NCBI GenBank assembly: GCA_001510385.1
Contig: LFFE01000017.1
Location: forward strand, 62,001 to 126,000
DNA from: Actinobacteria bacterium casp-actino5
Lineage (GTDB): Bacteria > Actinomycetota > Acidimicrobiia > Acidimicrobiales > Ilumatobacteraceae
Direction of reading: 5' to 3'
DNA length: 64,000 nt
Notes under the pieces: model-generated
Database searches by the model: none
Told to the model about the DNA's origin: nothing
The model's input: the letters and a program-made list of their open reading frames with translations, nothing else
Part shown: piece by piece, positions 51,199 through 60,345 of the stretch
Position numbering within the stretch: the first letter of the stretch is position 1
How the letters are laid out: each line of letters opens with the position of its first letter
Position numbers and translations under genes: made by a program

Positions 51199-53448
51199 CT
51201 AACGCTGACGAACAGTGACCACAGCGTTGTAATCCGGAATGCCACTCTCACGATCAGTGGAACCCGAACCAATGAGAACATTGCCCTCTGGCCACACCAC
51301 CTGAAGTGACCGCTCAGCGATATCAGCAACGTGCACCCGTCCATCAAAACGACCGGTTACCGATTCGAGGGTCACCGCATCCCCATCGGCCAAATTGAGT
51401 CGCTGCGCATCCGTCGCGTTCATGAAGACTGCGTCTCGTCCAGTCCCAGTCAACGGATCACGCTGTCCATGCACGATCGAGTTGAACTGCTTACCCCTTC
51501 GAGTAGATACCAAGAACGAACCTTCAGGGAGTTCCACCGGGCGTGCCGTCGGAGTAGTGAATCTTGCTCGACCATCAACTGTGGGAAACACTCCCCCCTC
51601 GCATAAATGCCGGCCACCCCATTGCACCGAATCACCCGTTTTCGAAAGATGTTCAATTCCCGCATACGCAGGAACAACCTCAGCAATCTCGGATCTCAGG
51701 TGTTGATTGTCACTCCACGAAAAGCAGTGAGCATTGGCTGGCGAGACCTTGCTTGCGATCTCTCCCCAAAGTCGCCATTCGCTCTTCGCAGTGCCGACTG
51801 TGCGAGGAATCTCTGGCGAGAAAATGATTCGCCGTTCAGTTGATGTCTCGGTTCCACCACCTTCCTGCTCGTAGCGAGTTCGCACCGGCAAGATGAGAAC
51901 ATCTTCCCCCTCGACGAGCATCTGTGAGGTTGCAACGACATCGAGATGCACACGAAGACCGACCGTCGACAGGGCCGAGGTCACTCGCTGCGGGTCGGGT
52001 AGGACGTCAATCATGTTGCCGCCAGAGAGCAACAACACATCAACCTGACGATCGATCACTGCTCCGACAAGCTCGGGAGCAGTTCGCGCCGGCTCACGAG
52101 GAATCTCGAACCCCCATCTCTCGCCTAACTCCACACAATTCTCATCGGTAAGGTCACGGCCACCCGGTAAGGCTGTTGCGTAGGCGCCCATCTCCGCTCC
52201 ACCTTGAACACCTGAATGTCCACGGATCGGCATCAAACCTGCCCCATCGCGGCCGACCATTCCGCGCGACAATGCAAGATTCACGATCGCCCGCACCCCA
52301 TCAACCGCATCAGCACGTTGGGTGATCCCCATCGACCACACAAAGATCGCTGACCCTACCTGCGCATACATATCAACAAACTCATCGATAACTGCGCTGT
52401 CGACTCCACAGTGCGCAAGAAGTTCGCCATCATCAACTTTCGTCAACTGATCGGCAAGTTCCTCCCACCCAGTCGTGTGCTCTGCGATAAAGGCTGTATC
52501 GATTGCGCCACGAGCAATCAGCCTCTTCAACACCAACTGAGCAAGTGCGACATCACCGCCAGGACGCACCGGCACATGAAGGTCGCAGATCTTTGTTCCA
52601 AACATCGCTGACTCAGCGTTGCTCGGTACCCAATAACGCTCAAGTGCGGGTTCAAGGAACGGGTTGACGACGACGACGCGACACCCACGGGCTTTTGCAA
52701 GATAGATGTACTTTGTGAAGACGGGCTGGTTTGCTGCCGGGTTTGCACCCCAGAGCACGATGAAATCTGAGGCAATCACGTCTTCCATTGAGCATGTCGT
52801 TGCCGCGACGCCAACTGTCGCCTTGAGCCCGACTGTTGACGGAGCGTGACACACTCGCGCCGCTGAATCGATTGACGCAATACCCATGGCCCGCGCCGCC
52901 TTGCCAGCGGCGTAATACACCTCGTTTGTTAATCCGCGACTCGTGAGATATACCCCGACGCGATCCGGAGTCGTTGAGTTGATTGACTCTGCAATCGTGC
53001 TGACTGCCTCATCCCAAGTGATCGCCGAGAAGCCTGGGTCGCCCTTGCGGCGTCTGAGCGGATAGCCAAGCCGGCCGAGATCTCTCAGTCCGGCACCATC
53101 GAGATGCGAGAGCGATGCAACATCAGCAAGTGCATCAACCTTCATCACATCTGCGGTGTTGAACTCCAACAGGCGCAGACGAGTACTACATAGGTGTATC
53201 CCGTCTTGGCCCCAATCGTGGAGCCCAGCGACGCCAAGAGCGCACCCATCGCAGGCTCCCTGAGTGAGCACCTTCCAGCCGTATCGCAGGTTCTTCCGAT
53301 TCACCCAGATCGTTCGCAACATCTCGCCGTAGTGATTCGGCTTCACGAGGCCGATCCCATTTGGTCGCCAACTCACCCACAATGACGGCCTGGGCCGACG
53401 AATGTGCCACCGCCACGGCAACACCCTCAAGGGGCGCCAGGAAATCAT
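51199..53448 (-). CDS. formate-dehydrogenase-like molybdopterin oxidoreductase (FdhF/YdeP family), Cys form
   Basis: This 749-residue molybdopterin-guanine-dinucleotide enzyme has an N-terminal Cys cluster C66, C69 and C87, which is fewer than the four Cys of FdhH. C200 in ARVCHAPS occupies the position where FdhH has selenocysteine (RVUHGPS), so it does not need Sec. LWGANPAANQP and the C-terminal cofactor-binding domain are typical. Substrate and partners are unknown; it may oxidise formate or another small molecule. Its ATG overlaps the stop of fdhD (ATGA), which ties it to the sulfur-carrier gene. Confidence 0.88.
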   Translation of the reverse strand: MISWRPLRVLPWRWHIRRPRPSLWVSWRPNGIGLVKPNHYGEMLRTIWVNRKNLRYGWKVLTQGACDGCALGVAGLHDWGQDGIHLCSTRLRLLEFNTADVMKVDALADVASLSHLDGAGLRDLGRLGYPLRRRKGDPGFSAITWDEAVSTIAESINSTTPDRVGVYLTSRGLTNEVYYAAGKAARAMGIASIDSAARVCHAPSTVGLKATVGVAATTCSMEDVIASDFIVLWGANPAANQPVFTKYIYLAKARGCRVVVVNPFLEPALERYWVPSNAESAMFGTKICDLHVPVRPGGDVALAQLVLKRLIARGAIDTAFIAEHTTGWEELADQLTKVDDGELLAHCGVDSAVIDEFVDMYAQVGSAIFVWSMGITQRADAVDGVRAIVNLALSRGMVGRDGAGLMPIRGHSGVQGGAEMGAYATALPGGRDLTDENCVELGERWGFEIPREPARTAPELVGAVIDRQVDVLLLSGGNMIDVLPDPQRVTSALSTVGLRVHLDVVATSQMLVEGEDVLILPVRTRYEQEGGGTETSTERRIIFSPEIPRTVGTAKSEWRLWGEIASKVSPANAHCFSWSDNQHLRSEIAEVVPAYAGIEHLSKTGDSVQWGGRHLCEGGVFPTVDGRARFTTPTARPVELPEGSFLVSTRRGKQFNSIVHGQRDPLTGTGRDAVFMNATDAQRLNLADGDAVTLESVTGRFDGRVHVADIAERSLQVVWPEGNVLIGSGSTDRESGIPDYNAVVTVRQR

Positions 53449-54266
53449 TGTGTTGACGTTGACGCCGTTGGGACTACCGAGGGATCAACGTAAGCGGTGA
53501 ATCGGTCATCACGGGCAAACCCGATCAGCCGAAGACCTGCCCGCTGCGCTGCATCGACGGCGAGCGACGACGGAGCGCTCACCGCAATGAGGGTCCCAAA
53601 TCCGGCAGCGCAGGCTTTCTGAACCATCTCAAAACTTGCTCGACCACTGATCACTAGCATCAAGTCGCGGGCAGGCAATCGTCCGGAGCGATACAAATGT
53701 CCAACAACTTTGTCGACTGCGTTGTGTCGCCCGACATCCTCGGTAATTTCGACAACGTGACCATCAATGGTCACTGCCGCAGCCGCATGCGAACCTCCAG
53801 TGAGGGCAAAAACCTCTTGTTGGGAACGCAAATTAGAAGCAACCGAGGCGACTACGTCACCATCTGGCTGACGGCCAGCATCGACACATGCAACGCTTGC
53901 GACCAACGCCGCCATGTCGGCAGTTCCACAAACCCCACATGAAGATGAGACCGTTCCTAAGCGAGCGGAGAATGAACCGGGGAGGTGGCCCGTTTCAATG
54001 AGAACTGTCGTCGTCGGACCTGAGCGATCTACTGAAACACCCGCCGTCACATCAGCTTGGAGCATTCCCTCGGCGATACAAAAACCGAGCGCTAGTGCCA
54101 CCGGGTCATCGGGAGTGCACATCGTCGTGGCAATGATTTCACCATCGACATTGATGGCGAGTGGCTGCTCGACGACGAGCCATTCTTCAGATTGGACTGA
54201 CCACCCGCTCGTATGACGGTCGGCTGTGTGGCGCCGAGCTCGTCCGTGCAGCGGTCGTGTAGTCAC
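53445..54266 (-). CDS. fdhD: formate dehydrogenase accessory sulfurtransferase FdhD
   Basis: This 273-residue protein has the FdhD Cys pair in SSSCGVCG (C110, C113), the sulfur-carrying residues that sulfurate the Mo cofactor for formate dehydrogenases. Other family motifs are ALGFCIAEG and TEDVGRHNAVDKVVG. The GTG start lies 41 bp downstream of the DUF169 gene. It precedes, and overlaps by 4 bp, the molybdoenzyme it should activate. Confidence 0.93.
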   Translation of the reverse strand: MTTRPLHGRARRHTADRHTSGWSVQSEEWLVVEQPLAINVDGEIIATTMCTPDDPVALALGFCIAEGMLQADVTAGVSVDRSGPTTTVLIETGHLPGSFSARLGTVSSSCGVCGTADMAALVASVACVDAGRQPDGDVVASVASNLRSQQEVFALTGGSHAAAAVTIDGHVVEITEDVGRHNAVDKVVGHLYRSGRLPARDLMLVISGRASFEMVQKACAAGFGTLIAVSAPSSLAVDAAQRAGLRLIGFARDDRFTAYVDPSVVPTASTSTQ

Positions 54267-54307
54267 AGGTGTAGTTTGCCACGCTGACTCACGTCACCTG
54301 CCACCGG

Positions 54308-55099
54308 TCACCCGTAGCTTCGACCAAGTCCCGCAGTTGCATCCGACTGCACGCCGTACGGCGGGATCGGATAGCGCAATCCGTTTTTCGACAGCGACTC
54401 AAGACCAGCAATGACACCCGGGAGGAACCGCGGCGGAATCGCCATCAACAATTCGTCCTCCATGACCCCGCCGTAGCGACGCTCGGCAAAACACGGGATC
54501 GACAAACTTGGTTCTCCAGTCGAGAGCGCACGACCCCACGAATCAGCACAGGACGATTCGCCCACGCAACCCCACTCGAGTTTCTTGAAACCAGTCCATT
54601 GGAGCCCGTTGATGAACAAGATCATCTGCGCCGGTGTGGCATAGATGAGACAGATATCGGGTGGATTCAGCCGACCAGATGCGAGCGGTGACACAGCCAT
54701 CGCTTCGTACTGACCGAACGGCACCGTTGTCATTGAGTGCTGATGAGCTGACGCATCCTCAGGCGTCTCGTACCACACTCCAGTCATCCGTTCACCCGAC
54801 AGCCATTCGTCATCTCGCGGGTGCAAACCAATCACGGTCGAACACTGGTCGCCGACGAGGTCTTCTACGGTGATGCCAACCGTCCACCCGAGGCGGCTCG
54901 CCTGGCCAACGATCTGATCGGTTGTGTGGATTGCCTGTGGTCGACGGATTTTCGGAATCGACTCCATCTCGTCACGGGTGACGAACATCTTCATGCCAAT
55001 TGGTGTCGTGCGAAGGCGAAGTAACCGGTTGAGATCATCCACTACCTGCGGCCAATCGAGATGGTCTCCAATCGACACCTTTGTCTCTACGTCGCTCAC
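54308..55099 (-). CDS. DUF169 family protein
   Basis: This 263-residue protein has the N-terminal DUF169 pattern VDDLNRLLRLRTTPIGMKMF and a later WGCVGESSCADSWGRALSTGEPSLSIPCFAERRYGG with several Cys. The family has no established biochemical function. The start is GTG 55099 with GGAGGTG a few nt upstream; the longer frame starting at 55147 would have no such site. It lies between the selenoprotein and fdhD in one apparent operon, so a redox or metal-handling role linked to them is possible. Confidence 0.85.
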   Translation of the reverse strand: MSDVETKVSIGDHLDWPQVVDDLNRLLRLRTTPIGMKMFVTRDEMESIPKIRRPQAIHTTDQIVGQASRLGWTVGITVEDLVGDQCSTVIGLHPRDDEWLSGERMTGVWYETPEDASAHQHSMTTVPFGQYEAMAVSPLASGRLNPPDICLIYATPAQMILFINGLQWTGFKKLEWGCVGESSCADSWGRALSTGEPSLSIPCFAERRYGGVMEDELLMAIPPRFLPGVIAGLESLSKNGLRYPIPPYGVQSDATAGLGRSYG

Positions 55100-55172
55100 C
55101 GTGCACCTCCAGATGTACTCGCTCGTCTCATGTTGACACGCGAACAAACCACGACAAGTTGTCGGAGCAGCG

Positions 55173-55703
55173 TTAGGAGATGATTTCGTTGATCACTGAC
55201 TCGATCACACCTGCTGCAAGGGCACGCATCTCGTCATCGGTGCGATCTTGAATCGGGTGCTCAACAAATATTCGCGCAACGTCTGGGAAACCGAGCGCTG
55301 CCGACTGAGCATCCGCCCCACTCACGAATTCACTTGACGCGACGAACACTCCAGGGACTCCACGGCTTTCGAGATCGACGATGTCATGCACACTGCATGA
55401 CGTGCAACTGCCTCAATCAGCAAGCGCTTCGATCACGAGCGTGCATTGAGTCGCGATCTCGTGTCGAAGGTCCACTGGCGCAGGCTTTGAAAACGTTGGT
55501 TTCTTGTAGCGCCGAACTATTGCGCCTCGCTCTATCAGTTGACGTTCAATTTCGTCGAGGAAGACGTCACCTCGAGGTTTTGAGATGTCGAGCAACCCAA
55601 TCGTCTCCCCGCTGAGAGACGAAGGACGCGCCAAGCGAGTGCGGGTTGCCGGAGCACTCTCCGACGTTGGGTCGAGGACGATGGTCTCACTCACGTTTGC
55701 CAC
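55173..55703 (-). CDS. selenoprotein with U-G-S-C motif (UGSC family), UGA at 55413-55415 decoded as Sec
   Basis: The frame starting at GTG 55703 runs to a TAA at 55173 through a single in-frame UGA at codon 97. Read as selenocysteine this gives EALAD-U97-GSC100-TSC103-SVHD, then VFVASSEF. The product is 176 residues, of roughly Trx-fold size. Both sides of the UGA are protein-like. U-x-x-C is a typical redox pair, and a UGSC family of seleno/Cys proteins is known by that motif (from memory). A perfect bSECIS-like hairpin starts 11 nt after UGA, and selA, selB and tRNA-Sec are next door. The start could be GTG 55694, which has a better GGTGG site. The function is unknown. Confidence 0.9.
55383..55401 (-). 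promoter_or_regulatory. bacterial SECIS element of the UGSC selenoprotein
   Basis: In the mRNA, GUCAUGCA pairs perfectly with UGCAUGAC around the 3-nt loop GUG. The stem begins 11 nt after the UGA and the loop lies about 20 nt after it, with a G in the first loop position. This matches bacterial SECIS rules (apical loop with G, 16-37 nt from UGA) and the spacing I recall for E. coli fdhF. The hairpin lies in coding sequence for TSCSVHD. Confidence 0.85.
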
Positions 55704-55724
55704 CTTAGACGATCCGCCAACTAC

Positions 55725-57185
55725 TCATGGGCGAACAGCCACGGTCACTGGGTCGCTTCCCATTTCGCCATTCACCCATCCACCAATCATTGAGGAAAAC
55801 AAACCTGCCCCGCCACCGGCATGCGCCAGCAGGATTCCTCCAGGTCGAAATTTAGGAAGAGCAGGAGCATCAGCAAAACCTGCGGGAACACCCTCTGCGA
55901 TGCCGCCAACACCCCTCGCAAGTTCAGCGCCAGGACGAGTAGTAGCGGCGTACAGCGCCTCAAGCACCTCGGCGTCACTCCACTTCGCTTCATGGAAAAT
56001 TCGAGAATGATCCGGGCTTATAACCAATACGACGTCAAACCCGATGACAAGTTTGGGGTTATGCATCCCCATCAGGGCATCGGCAAGGGTCGCAACAAGT
56101 TGTTCTGGTGTCCGGGCAAGTTGGTCAACAACACACTTCGGGCCCTCACCGGCGAAGACCGTGATGGCGTCGGTGCCTTCCGGCATACCTCGCTGAACCG
56201 ACAGGGGTTGAAACGGAGAACCCACCTCATCCTCGGCAAAGCAGAACGAAATCTTTCCGGGACTGCCGTGGGTCGCGCGATCAACCTCGCCTGGCCGTCC
56301 TCCGCCGACATTTCGAATGACAAGTTGCACAGCACGACCAATTGTCAGGTTCGCTCGATTTCCCTGACCGAATACATTGATGCCGGAATTCATACCGATG
56401 GCCTTCGTTCCAGGGCCGTTACATATCAACACAGGCCCAACCGGCATCGTCGTTGCAAGGAGTCCGTGCATGTTGAACGTGTCGTTGCAGACCGCCTCGA
56501 TTGCAGCAATAACCCACGGCAGGTACTCAGGCCGACAGCCAGCCATGACCGCGTTCACCGCAATCTTTTCAACGGTGAGCTCGACAAGGTCGGGGGGGGC
56601 GATCGCAACAACTTCATCTGGATCCCGCGTCGTCCCTTCAAGCATTCGTAACACCCGCTCACGGGTCGGCGGGACAACAGGGAGTCCATCGGTCCAGCCT
56701 CGCTCGAACATTGCCTCGAAAGGATCTTCCGCCTGGGCAAATTCCACCTGACGAGCAGCCAATCCATCGCCAGCGAATTTCGCTCGAAGTGCGTCGACGA
56801 GGTCGGGGTCGACGCTCATCGAGCCGCAGCCAGGGCGCATCACGGGCAGGCTGGCGCCAAGATCATCAATGCCGGTGATTGTCTGCCATTCGGCTTGAGA
56901 CCAACCGACTGTTCGCACCTCCTCTGAGCCTGAGCTCACTTTGATGAGCGTGGGAACAGTCTCGATGTCGTGATGCCATGAGAACGCGAGCTCGTTGTCG
57001 TGCTCACGATCAACAGATTCAGGAAATGCAGGATCGTCCTGGGTGATAACCCGAATTGAGGTCGACTCAGTGATCTCTAAAATCACCTGTTCCACCATCT
57101 GGCAGGTCTCACAGTCTCGCTTCACCACAACTGTCAGTCCATCTGAAAGCGCTGTGGAGGAAAGTTCTCGTGCTGGGGTCGCCAT
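55725..57185 (-). CDS. protein with thioredoxin-like CxxC N-terminus and large domain of unknown function
   Basis: This 486-residue protein has an N-terminal region with a C25-ET-C28 motif in VVVKRDCETCQMVEQV, a thioredoxin/glutaredoxin-like beginning. A large domain follows, with ERGWTDGLPVVPPTRERV, VNAVMAGCRPEYLPWV and GPVLICNGPGTKAIGMNSG. I do not recognise that domain. It leads the operon CxxC protein - selenoprotein - DUF169 - fdhD - molybdoenzyme and lies 21 bp before the selenoprotein in the same frame. The start at 57185 has TACCGT 6 nt upstream, so it appears leaderless. It could be the redox partner or substrate-binding subunit of the selenoprotein (inference). Confidence 0.82.
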   Translation of the reverse strand: MATPARELSSTALSDGLTVVVKRDCETCQMVEQVILEITESTSIRVITQDDPAFPESVDREHDNELAFSWHHDIETVPTLIKVSSGSEEVRTVGWSQAEWQTITGIDDLGASLPVMRPGCGSMSVDPDLVDALRAKFAGDGLAARQVEFAQAEDPFEAMFERGWTDGLPVVPPTRERVLRMLEGTTRDPDEVVAIAPPDLVELTVEKIAVNAVMAGCRPEYLPWVIAAIEAVCNDTFNMHGLLATTMPVGPVLICNGPGTKAIGMNSGINVFGQGNRANLTIGRAVQLVIRNVGGGRPGEVDRATHGSPGKISFCFAEDEVGSPFQPLSVQRGMPEGTDAITVFAGEGPKCVVDQLARTPEQLVATLADALMGMHNPKLVIGFDVVLVISPDHSRIFHEAKWSDAEVLEALYAATTRPGAELARGVGGIAEGVPAGFADAPALPKFRPGGILLAHAGGGAGLFSSMIGGWVNGEMGSDPVTVAVRP

Positions 57186-57191
57186 GTCTTC

Positions 57192-57201
57192 ACGGTACTC
57201 T
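57192..57201. promoter_or_regulatory. overlapping divergent -10 boxes of tRNA-Sec and the selenoprotein operon
   Basis: On the minus strand TACCGT (57197-57192) lies 6 nt before the ATG at 57185. On the plus strand TACTCT (57196-57201) lies 7 nt before the tRNA-Sec 5' end at 57209. The boxes share two base pairs, so polymerase cannot occupy both at once. The -35 region of each would fall inside the other gene. Confidence 0.6.
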
Positions 57202-57208
57202 ACGAAGT

Positions 57209-57301
57209 GGAGGTGTCCGAGCGCCTGGTGGGCTCCGCCGTCTTCAACACGGTTGGGACGGATGAACTCCGTCCGGCGGGTTCGATTCCCGTCCACCTCC
57301 G
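57209..57301 (+). tRNA. selC: selenocysteine tRNA (anticodon UCA)
   Basis: This 93-nt tRNA has the features of tRNA-Sec. The acceptor stem GGAGGTG pairs with CACCTCC with an eighth position mismatched, the anticodon loop CTTCAAC carries TCA to read UGA, the long variable arm is GGACGG/CCGTCC, and the T-arm is GGGTTCGATTCCC. CCA is not encoded. The gene points toward selB, whose stop codon begins 2 nt after the discriminator base, so the two genes are tail to tail. Its promoter overlaps that of the selenoprotein operon. Confidence 0.95.
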
Positions 57302-57302
57302 C

Positions 57303-59003
57303 TCATGGCTGACTGCCGCGTCCGCGAACTCGGCGATCACCAACACGCCGGGTCAGCATCATCTGATCAAGGCAATTTGCAAGCGGCAGTGCGTGCTTTC
57401 TTGTTACGCCAAGAGCATCCCGTAGTTCAGCGACTGTGAACCCGTCTGGGTCAGCACCCCACAGCAATTCAAGAACTGGTTGAAGTCCGCGCAACACCTC
57501 GGTATGGAAGTACACGCCATCGTGGCCAATCAGCACACCGAGACGGACCAGTCGCGCAACGACAGGTCGATCTGCACTGTCGATTGGCCCCGCTGCAACA
57601 CCTTCCACAAGGAAACGATCGATGAGCGGCGACTCAAGAGCCGGATCGACCCCTCCAAGCCGCGCAACTCCATGCTCGATAACAACACCATCGATTGAAC
57701 TCAATAGTGAACGTTCAATCTCGGTGCACTCAGCGACATCGAACGGGGCGGTGCCAAGCCGTTCACGGAGCGAGCGAAGAGTTGATTCCACAACAGTTGA
57801 CGCCGCGGTCCAAGGGCCAGCCACAGGCGCCACGTCGAGCCCAGTGAGTCGCCGGGCCTCAGCGATCGTGATCCAGCCGTGAGCAATCAATTGCTGTTCA
57901 ACTGACCCATCTGGAAACGATCGAGACGGTGACGAAATCGGTGCAACATCATTAACGATCGCCACTCCGACGACCTCTCCCACTCCCTGGTCGCGCAGCA
58001 CCAGACGATCTTGCGGACGGAGCGGAAGAGGGTCGTCAAACCTCATTCGATACCAATTCCGATGTGCGTTGTCCGCCCCGCCAACTGGACGAAGGTTGAC
58101 ATCTCGACGCGCTGAACCAATATGCGCGCTGAAGCCCTTCCCGTTCCGAATACTTGAACCTTCTAACAAATCGAGTACTACATCAACCGCGGTGGTATTC
58201 TGCCACTCTCCCTCTTCGACAAGTGCATCACCCCGCTCAAGCTCAGTGGTTGAAAGTCCGGAAACATTCACCGCGATCCGACTGACGGCAGCAACCTGCT
58301 CACATTCCACTCCGTGCCGCTGCACCCCCCGAACCGTCACCGAGCGGTCAGAACTAACAAGCACCAACTCACTGCCAACCGACACGCAACCCGACGAGAG
58401 AGTTCCAGTAACAATCGTGCCGGCACCCGTGATCGAGAACACTCGATCGACAAACAGACGCACAGGTACTGACGGTCGCTCCGATCGCTGTTCATCTACC
58501 GTTTGCACGACTCTCGCAAGTTCGTCAACGAGCGCAGCAACACCCTCACCCGTCACAGCAGATGTAAAGAACGGCTGAGACCACGAGATTGAAGACTGGC
58601 TGAGTAATTCGGTTACCTCGGAAGCGACCTGAGTGCGTCGTTCCATCGACACAAGATCAACCCGCGAAAGAGCAACTACCCCCGCCTCAGGCAGTGTCGC
58701 CTCGATGACTGCCAAATGCTCTCGTGTTTGCGCGCGGCCGCCCTCGACGGCGTCTACGACGAGCAAAGCAACTGACGCTTGAGACATCCCCGCAATCATG
58801 GTTTTGAGATAGTCCGCATGCCCGGGAACATCCACAATGTCGAGGGTGGTGCCATCTGAGGAAACGACATGACCAAAACCGAGGTCAAGTGTGAGACCTC
58901 GCCTGAGCTCTTCCGCATATCGGTCGGGTTCGATACCCGTCATCGCTCGCACAAGCGCCGACTTTCCATGGTCGACATGGCCAGCGGTAGCGATTACTGC
59001 CAT
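57303..59003 (-). CDS. selB: selenocysteine-specific elongation factor SelB
   Basis: This 566-residue EF-Tu-like GTPase has G1 GHVDHGKS near the N-terminus and G3 DVPGHADYL. G4 reads SRVD rather than NKxD, so the guanine-binding motif is divergent. The second half has winged-helix domains that bind the SECIS (LRSLRERLGTAPFDVAEC, VAELRDALGVTRKHALPL). It delivers Sec-tRNA to UGA codons with a SECIS. It starts 1 bp after selA ends, so the two are cotranscribed. Confidence 0.95.
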   Translation of the reverse strand: MAVIATAGHVDHGKSALVRAMTGIEPDRYAEELRRGLTLDLGFGHVVSSDGTTLDIVDVPGHADYLKTMIAGMSQASVALLVVDAVEGGRAQTREHLAVIEATLPEAGVVALSRVDLVSMERRTQVASEVTELLSQSSISWSQPFFTSAVTGEGVAALVDELARVVQTVDEQRSERPSVPVRLFVDRVFSITGAGTIVTGTLSSGCVSVGSELVLVSSDRSVTVRGVQRHGVECEQVAAVSRIAVNVSGLSTTELERGDALVEEGEWQNTTAVDVVLDLLEGSSIRNGKGFSAHIGSARRDVNLRPVGGADNAHRNWYRMRFDDPLPLRPQDRLVLRDQGVGEVVGVAIVNDVAPISSPSRSFPDGSVEQQLIAHGWITIAEARRLTGLDVAPVAGPWTAASTVVESTLRSLRERLGTAPFDVAECTEIERSLLSSIDGVVIEHGVARLGGVDPALESPLIDRFLVEGVAAGPIDSADRPVVARLVRLGVLIGHDGVYFHTEVLRGLQPVLELLWGADPDGFTVAELRDALGVTRKHALPLANCLDQMMLTRRVGDRRVRGRGSQP

Positions 59004-59004
59004 G

Positions 59005-60315
59005 TCAACGCTTCAACGCGAGTAGTGCGTCGATGATGTTGGCATCGTCTGTTTCGTGCACCGATCTCAAATCGATCCACGTGGCACCGTCGGCTACACG
59101 GGTGATCACCGGAAATGGTTTCGCACGTCGAAGCTGTTCGACGTGGTCACCTGAAACGACAACAGCGTGCGATGGCAACGTTGCTCCAGGTGCTGCTCCT
59201 GCGCCGACAACCGCTGATGACACTCGCGCCTCGCCGATACCCGCTTCAGCAATGATTCGTTGCGCGCGGCCTGCAAGCGCGTCATCACGAACCCCGACCA
59301 TCGCCCAGAACGGAATGTCCTCTGTCACGGTCCGATCAAGGTATGCCAGCAACACCTGCTGGAGCGGAACAATTGCGTGATGACCGGGTCGAAGGGCACG
59401 CATTAACGGGTGCTTCGCGCACTCCTCGATGAGATCTGAGCGACCAGCGATGATTCCGCATTGAGGACCACCTAGCAATTTGTCGCCACTAAACATCACA
59501 ATGTCGGCTCCGTCTTCAATACTTTGCTTCACTGATGGCTCATCAGTCACCCAGGTAGGGAAGGGACGCATTTCAGATGGCAACCACGGGGCTTGCGAGT
59601 CGAGAAGCCCGGAGCCCAGATCAACCGCAAGAACCGGGGGTAACGATGCCAACTCGCGTAGTGAGGCTGACTCGACGAATCCTTCTACAGAAAAGTTTGA
59701 TGGGTGCACCTTGAGCAGCATTGCGATGTCGTGATCTGGTGTTGAACACGCCTCTTCGTAATCCTCACGTCTCGTTTTATTCGTCGTTCCAACATCAATT
59801 AGTCGAGCCCCTGATCGCCGCATCACATCAGGGACTCTGAACCCGCCCCCGATCTCGACGCTCTCTCCACGAGAGACTGCAACACCCCGATTCTCGGCCA
59901 ATGCCGACAGCACCAGCAGTACGGCGGCCGCATTGTTGTTGACGACTAACGCGTCTTCAGCCCCCGTCAACATTCGTAGCAACGAGGCGATTGCGGTGTG
60001 TCGAGAGCCTCGGCTTCCGTCTTGAAGGTCAAACTCGACTGAGGTTGCCCGTTGCCCAGAAGTACCAGTGATTGGTGCCCGGCCAAGATTCGTATGCAAT
60101 AACACTCCGGTTGCATTGATGACTTCGCTGATGAGTGAGGCATGGAGTTGTTCACATAGCTGGCGGGCCACCTTCGCAGCGTCGTCAGGTTGTATTGAAA
60201 TTGCGCGCCGAACGCAGTCAACAAGTACCGCGTGCGGAAGATCGACTTCTGCTGAGAGCGCCCGGGCAAGCGCATCAACCGATGGCGGGCGCTGTGCCGT
60301 TTCGTTGTTACTCAT
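59005..60315 (-). CDS. selA: L-seryl-tRNA(Sec) selenium transferase SelA
   Basis: This 436-residue PLP enzyme converts Ser-tRNA(Sec) to Sec-tRNA(Sec) using selenophosphate. It has the family N-terminus (PSVDALARALSAEVDLPHAVLVD), ATGVLLHTNLGRAPI, and MFSGDKLLGGPQCGII containing the PLP-binding Lys. The start is ATG 60315; a TTG one codon earlier is possible. It lies 30 bp downstream of the monooxygenase gene and is followed by selB. selD, needed to make selenophosphate, is not in the window. Confidence 0.95.
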   Translation of the reverse strand: MSNNETAQRPPSVDALARALSAEVDLPHAVLVDCVRRAISIQPDDAAKVARQLCEQLHASLISEVINATGVLLHTNLGRAPITGTSGQRATSVEFDLQDGSRGSRHTAIASLLRMLTGAEDALVVNNNAAAVLLVLSALAENRGVAVSRGESVEIGGGFRVPDVMRRSGARLIDVGTTNKTRREDYEEACSTPDHDIAMLLKVHPSNFSVEGFVESASLRELASLPPVLAVDLGSGLLDSQAPWLPSEMRPFPTWVTDEPSVKQSIEDGADIVMFSGDKLLGGPQCGIIAGRSDLIEECAKHPLMRALRPGHHAIVPLQQVLLAYLDRTVTEDIPFWAMVGVRDDALAGRAQRIIAEAGIGEARVSSAVVGAGAAPGATLPSHAVVVSGDHVEQLRRAKPFPVITRVADGATWIDLRSVHETDDANIIDALLALKR

Positions 60316-60345
60316 CAACCGACGCCAATGCGCTCAACCCATCGA

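Follow-up and report, generated by a model that had tools for sequence, protein, structure and literature searches.

A selenocysteine (Sec) island in the genome of the actinobacterium casp-actino5 (Ilumatobacteraceae) is built around two adjacent genes, one encoding a UGSC-family protein whose in-frame UGA is very probably read as Sec, the other a partner protein with an N-terminal thioredoxin domain. The window analysed here is a stretch of 64,000 nucleotides (assembly GCA_001510385.1, contig LFFE01000017.1, positions 62,001 to 126,000), and positions without a contig or locus name refer to it. We give about even chances to a reading of the island's core as a thioredoxin-driven two-gene selenoreductase, with UGSC as the catalytic Sec subunit and the thioredoxin-domain protein as its partner, acting on a small organic substrate. 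A first-pass annotation of the sequence had suggested an unknown selenium-dependent redox system apart from classical formate metabolism. Its complete Sec machinery and its conserved unit of UGSC and a CxxC protein are borne out by the present analysis, whereas the dedication of the machinery to UGSC, the link to DUF169, fdhD and a formate dehydrogenase (FDH)-like enzyme, and the novelty of the system are not.

The genes selA and selB, the tRNA-Sec gene and the UGA-containing UGSC gene span 5.2 kb (55173-60318; Table 1). Each lies where the first-pass annotation had placed it and passes its profile or Rfam cut-off, with one correction to the original picture: tRNA-Sec is encoded on the strand opposite to the operon. 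The absence of selD from the whole genome had been named as an observation that would speak against the island; selD is present on another contig (C11, 56959-57864, 333 bits). The bacterial Sec decoding set of selA, selB, tRNA-Sec and selD is complete in this genome of 1.9 Mb (32 contigs, 90.8% complete), in which no match to tRNA 2-selenouridine synthase was found.

Decoding of the in-frame UGA

The UGSC gene is open only when its TGA is taken as Sec. The product scores above the curated cut-offs of both PF24696 and NF041046 and contains the motif UGSCTSC, in which the positions C95, G96, S97 and C98 are invariant in an alignment free of plasmid loci. Of 109 unique homologous copies, 97 have TGA at the Sec site and 12 have a Cys codon there. 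Coding constraint persists beyond the UGA, as the codons on its 3' side differ between the window and its closest relatives by 30-34 synonymous and just 2-4 nonsynonymous changes, the mark of purifying selection and not of chance.

A hairpin with the consensus GUCRUGCA-GUG-UGCAYGAC, consisting of an 8-bp stem and a GUG loop, is found 11 nt 3' of the UGA. The complete stem is present in 88 of the 97 Sec copies versus one of the 12 Cys copies. The third bases of a Ser (TCR) and a His (CAY) codon face each other in this stem and pair as G-C in 60 copies, A-U in 21 and G-U in 14, with C-U in two copies and A-C never; pair 7-13 exchanges C-G for G-C (92/5) with zero mismatches. The p-values of the covariation are inflated by kinship of the copies, and part of the stem is dictated by the amino acids. 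It is difficult to account for the covariation of the third bases, and for the loss of the stem in Cys copies, other than by a role as a selenocysteine insertion sequence (SECIS). It was this covariation that singled the hairpin out, not its thermodynamic stability, which on its own is not significant (z -0.24).

In genome lists compiled by hand, selA accompanies a UGA-type UGSC gene in 55 of 56 genomes and is missing from one (G188), which is 79% complete. Three of the ten genomes with Cys-only UGSC have selA, and the other seven have no Sec machinery. UGSC genes with a plain stop in genomes lacking the machinery had been proposed as a refuting observation; the copies in these seven genomes carry a Cys codon, not a plain stop. 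The reading of the UGA as Sec, already made in the first-pass annotation, is strongly supported by these sequence comparisons. A genuine stop, which would split the gene into two short open reading frames (ORFs) or make it a pseudogene, has a single point in its favour, namely that Sec incorporation is predicted from sequence, and is extremely improbable in the face of the 97 unique TGA copies, the Cys-codon homologs, the downstream purifying selection, the covarying hairpin and the full Sec machinery.

Pairing of UGSC with a thioredoxin-domain partner

UGSC and the partner occur together in 65 of 198 genomes of the class, with UGSC alone in one and the partner alone in two (Fisher 9e-49). The co-occurrence of the two genes, which the first-pass annotation had suggested as a check, thus holds for 65 of the 68 genomes carrying either gene. 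The partner adjoins UGSC in every locus examined, mostly within 100 nt, in a survey for which some genes were fetched twice. The pairing is also found in Alpha-, Beta- and Gammaproteobacteria, Myxococcales and haloarchaea, and the two genes are adjacent across Actinomycetota, Pseudomonadota, Bacillota and haloarchaea. In Sporomusa, Vibrio and Variovorax boronicumulans (L155, L157, L192) they are apparently fused in a single ORF.

These observations bear on the simplest alternative, an ordinary, known UGSC selenoprotein with a partner that is just a frequent neighbour and sel genes that are close by chance. UGSC is indeed a named family, the pair lies away from selA and selB in many genomes, and 79 surveyed genomes have selA and no UGA-type UGSC gene. 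The near-perfect pairing, the fusions and the adjacency across these phyla argue for a pairing beyond chance neighbourhood, and make this alternative improbable.

Several variants of the arrangement were observed. The fused ORFs of Sporomusa and Vibrio adjoin genes for aconitase X and DUF126. A metagenome-assembled genome (MAG) of the Granulosicoccaceae carries a tandem of two partner-UGSC pairs, one with and one without a thioredoxin domain (L146:4397-8069). The casp-actino5 genome itself has another partner-like gene, of which the C-terminal part is present at the end of a contig (C25, 11976-12503; L183), probably a second pair severed by assembly.

The partner consists of an N-terminal thioredoxin domain with its CxxC (C25-C28), a PGCGS motif (C120) and a core domain. 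The N-terminus was recognised both by sequence, as its profile matches thioredoxins of the PDB (E 1.6e-4), and in the structure model, where it superimposes on thioredoxins with Z 9.9 and a root-mean-square deviation of 2.3 over 89 aligned residues. The CxxC is present in 117 of 117 complete copies (some of them fetched twice), and the invariant residues of the core in the alignment are D166, G167, C217, R284, D302, C315 and E318. A second class of partner is devoid of the thioredoxin domain; on plasmids of Arthrobacter, Roseovarius and Variovorax, pairs with such a partner have trxB close by instead, accompanied in Arthrobacter by trxA. A Foldseek search with the whole partner returned thioredoxins and a weak likeness to class I fumarase (probability 0.5-0.7, TM ~0.2). 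The fumarase match was set aside, since the two invariant cysteines of the core fall short of what such an iron-sulfur enzyme needs.

The cysteine of PGCGS is probably redox-active, to judge from the sequences. Its codon is TGC or TGT in 95 of 98 distinct copies and TGA in three, which belong to three lineages (L026/L057, L058 and L130), and a hairpin directly follows each of these TGA codons (L026, L058, L130). The partner is therefore predicted to be a selenoprotein itself in a few lineages, and this PGUGS protein would be a new selenoprotein form.

Relation to GrdB and PrdB and a proposed mechanism

The name UGSC for a selenoprotein family dates from 2008, when the family ranked in the top five by number in the Global Ocean Sampling survey, was guessed to have a thioredoxin-like fold and was described as fused to a domain called Unknown_1 (PMC2398784). 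This domain may be the core of the partner. The family also features in later work (PMC9312934, PMC13188914), with UAG-coded Sec in Geodermatophilaceae (PMC5330540), and a 2026 review places it among families with largely uncharacterised functions (PMC13188914). The first-pass annotation had treated the system as unknown, a view that this literature and the existing Pfam and NCBIfam models do not support. No paper linking UGSC to glycine reductase or describing the partner was found in a search that spanned the main texts of part of the literature, and a literature search for selenoproteins of Acidimicrobiia returned nothing.

The model of UGSC (pLDDT 94) has a flavodoxin-like alpha/beta fold, contrary to the 2008 guess, with the Sec where a helix begins after a central strand. 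No thioredoxin is among the top rows of the structure search, and the PDB matches are generic flavodoxin- or receiver-like folds only. The Sec belongs to a UxxCxxC site (U95-GS-C98-TS-C101), the last cysteine of which is replaced by W or Y in many type B copies. GrdB, the selenoprotein B of glycine/sarcosine/betaine reductase, likewise has a UxxCxxC motif and receives its electrons from thioredoxin (PMC13188914).

Comparison by hhalign of UGSC with GrdB/PrdB-type proteins of the same class gave a score of 53 (P 1.1e-7) with Sec aligned on Sec, followed by a common E..G[IV]P and an HP motif. The controls remained well apart, with 16.6 for the reversed profile, at most 18.9 for 60 column shuffles and at most 24.1 for 43 unrelated families. 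The score falls to 35 without the three true GrdB rows, and the match is confined to residues 79-152. This implies a distant homology of the Sec half of UGSC to the Sec domain of GrdB/PrdB, as judged by profile alignment, and not membership of UGSC in GrdB. A search for an experimental structure of the GrdB Sec domain, against which the model could be compared, found none.

The proposed selenoreductase builds on features that were computed, namely the pairing, the thioredoxin domain, the Sec decoding signals, the exchange of Cys and Sec at two sites and the sequence homology of UGSC with GrdB/PrdB, from which we infer the electron path, the reductive chemistry and the substrate. NADPH and a thioredoxin reductase encoded elsewhere would reduce the CxxC of the partner's thioredoxin domain, and electrons would then reach the UxxCxxC of UGSC, possibly via the PGCGS cysteine, which is predicted to be Sec in some lineages. 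There the selenolate would attack a small organic molecule, bound for the most part by the partner's core, and cleave it reductively, as GrdB and PrdB do in glycine and D-proline reductase but with no counterpart of the pyruvoyl subunit of those enzymes. As part of this proposal, selA, selB and tRNA-Sec would adjoin the pair because the pair depends on Sec. With an obligate thioredoxin-domain partner and a Sec half distantly related to that of GrdB/PrdB, the orphan UGSC becomes a testable enzyme consisting of two proteins, with a likely electron donor and a defined active site.

A more far-reaching version, which we hold tentatively and rate at somewhat under an even chance, places UGSC and its partner in the glycine/proline reductase superfamily as a branch that has gone unrecognised. 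In this view the two subunits, with thioredoxin fused to one of them and no pyruvoyl cofactor, would form a selenoreductase that reductively cleaves a small organic compound in surface-water bacteria and, in its Cys form, in haloarchaea. If true, one of the most abundant selenoproteins of the ocean would be accounted for.

A number of observations weigh against these proposals. The confinement of the match to one part of UGSC has to be counted here, as does the failure of the GrdB profile PF07355 itself to match UGSC. The partner shows no similarity to the GrdE family PF09338 by hhalign (probability 0.1%), and no pyruvoyl subunit was found in the host genome in a search for PF09338. The core of the partner matches no named family in Pfam or NCBIfam and so gives no clue to substrate or reaction. 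Around the thioredoxin-fused form, the neighbours in marine relatives (MutY-like glycosylase, MauE, flavin reductase and acyl-CoA dehydrogenase) indicate no pathway.

A serious rival, if a less likely one, assigns the pair to the antioxidant or thiol-repair enzymes of thioredoxin type, as either a peroxidase or a disulfide or sulfoxide reductase, in which Sec reduces an oxidised thiol or a peroxide and no organic C-X bond is cleaved. This would fit the thioredoxin domain fused in the partner, the predominance of thiol oxidoreductases among the Sec proteins of marine bacteria, the original fold guess for UGSC (PMC2398784) and the retention of the pair by marine relatives without a catabolic operon. 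It is at odds with the match of the Sec half to GrdB/PrdB, with the flavodoxin-like model of UGSC and with the neighbours of distant pairs, where TRAP/TTT transporters and CoA transferases, of the kind usual in the catabolism of small acids, are found together with acyl-CoA enzymes. The contexts of these distant pairs favour small-acid metabolism there, and those of type B (aconitase X, CoA transferases, TRAP transporters and a phosphosulfolactate synthase-like protein) are too varied to name a substrate.

Genomic neighbourhood and comparison with known systems

The order selA-selB-partner-UGSC is kept in many Ilumatobacteraceae-like MAGs down to ~42-45% SelB identity; where ARAGORN calls tRNA-Sec, the gene always lies between selB and the partner. 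In three of the loci a 96-nt gene at this position is called tRNA-Phe or tRNA-Val (L087:9848-9943, L092:7927-8022 and L096:6857-6952), probably tRNA-Sec with a misplaced anticodon. The MAG contigs L091, L094 and L097, titled Bifidobacterium breve, carry an aquatic Acidimicrobiia-type cassette, and the titles appear to be wrong. The same order as in the window, including tRNA-Sec, is found in a Burkholderiales MAG (L149:9254-11955), and a pair is likewise flanked by selA and selB on a Paracoccus plasmid. Clustering of the neighbours around the thioredoxin-fused form yielded synteny and no pathway, and several of the clusters resemble shadow ORFs. The rhodopsin gene by which the first-pass annotation had characterised the host lies inside the window at ~1658-2287.

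Table 1. Features of the Sec island and the genes behind it
Feature	Position	Strand	Evidence or remark
selA, L-seryl-tRNA(Sec) selenium transferase	59005..60318	-	TIGR00474 399 bits, cut-off 268
selB, Sec-specific elongation factor	57303..59003	-	TIGR00475 275 bits, cut-off 242; SelB-wing_3
tRNA-Sec (selC), anticodon TCA	57209..57302	+	ARAGORN; Rfam RF01852 63.4 bits, gathering score 47
Partner (CxxC) protein, 486 aa	55725..57185	-	no named family above cut-off
UGSC selenoprotein, ~173 aa, probable GTG start at 55694	~55173..55694	-	PF24696 163.2 bits (cut-off 25), NF041046 160.4 bits (cut-off 125)
In-frame TGA very probably read as Sec, U of UGSCTSC	55413..55415	-	TGA in 97 unique homologous copies
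Bacterial SECIS (bSECIS) apical stem-loop GUCAUGCA-GUG-UGCAUGAC	55383..55401	-	begins 11 nt 3' of UGA
DUF169 protein	54308..55099	-	PF02596 133.7 bits
fdhD	53445..54266	-	TIGR00129 172 bits
FdhF/YdeP-family molybdopterin oxidoreductase, Cys form	51199..53448	-	TIGR01701 593 bits

The Sec machinery serves more than UGSC, since the genome encodes a second selenoprotein. This GrdB-like protein of ~398 residues on contig C7 (L181:8713-9906, minus strand) reads TPV-U-PLC across a TGA that is kept in relatives, and its N-terminal part matches the C-terminal region of GrdB (PF07355, 28.5 bits). It is probably the form named PrdB in ocean surveys. Together with the 79 genomes mentioned above, it contradicts the first-pass annotation, in which the small UGSC protein seemed to be the reason for keeping the machinery. 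A peroxiredoxin-like ORF reading GHW-TGA-PYC was seen in the Burkholderiales MAG (L149, near 9745, minus strand).

UGSC is followed on its own strand by DUF169, fdhD and fdhF, in an order that is kept in the closest relatives (L080-L084); the short contig L121, counted with these relatives, shows DUF169 alone. The shared strand and order are what recommends the view of the island as a formate or molybdoenzyme locus in which UGSC serves the FdhF/YdeP-like enzyme, akin to the functional link drawn in the first-pass annotation. At the examined loci outside the closest relatives these genes were not found beside the pair. The enzyme itself reads ARVCHAPS, in agreement with the Cys form given in the first-pass annotation, with Cys instead of Sec at what we take to be the position of the Sec site, and is thus no Sec-containing FDH. 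A formate locus is accordingly very unlikely.

The clustering of selA, selB, tRNA-Sec and fdhD in the window resembles known selA-selB-selC-fdh loci, from which the island differs in that its selenoprotein is UGSC and its FDH-like enzyme, in the Cys form, is linked only in the closest relatives. Residues 5-106 of the partner have the fold and CxxC of thioredoxin; unlike thioredoxin, this domain is fused to a core of ~340 residues that belongs to no named family. The window protein agrees with the UGSC family in its profiles and its UGA-containing motif, whereas the obligate partner, the thioredoxin link, the Sec form of the partner and the relation to GrdB are absent from the published accounts in the part of the literature searched. 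With GrdB/PrdB, the Sec half of UGSC shares the alignment of Sec to Sec, the UxxCxxC motif and, as proposed here, thioredoxin as the source of electrons, in contrast to the missing PF07355 match and the lack of a pyruvoyl proprotein partner (PF09338). The hosts differ as well, as the UGSC pair resides mostly in bacteria of surface waters and not in amino-acid-fermenting clostridia.

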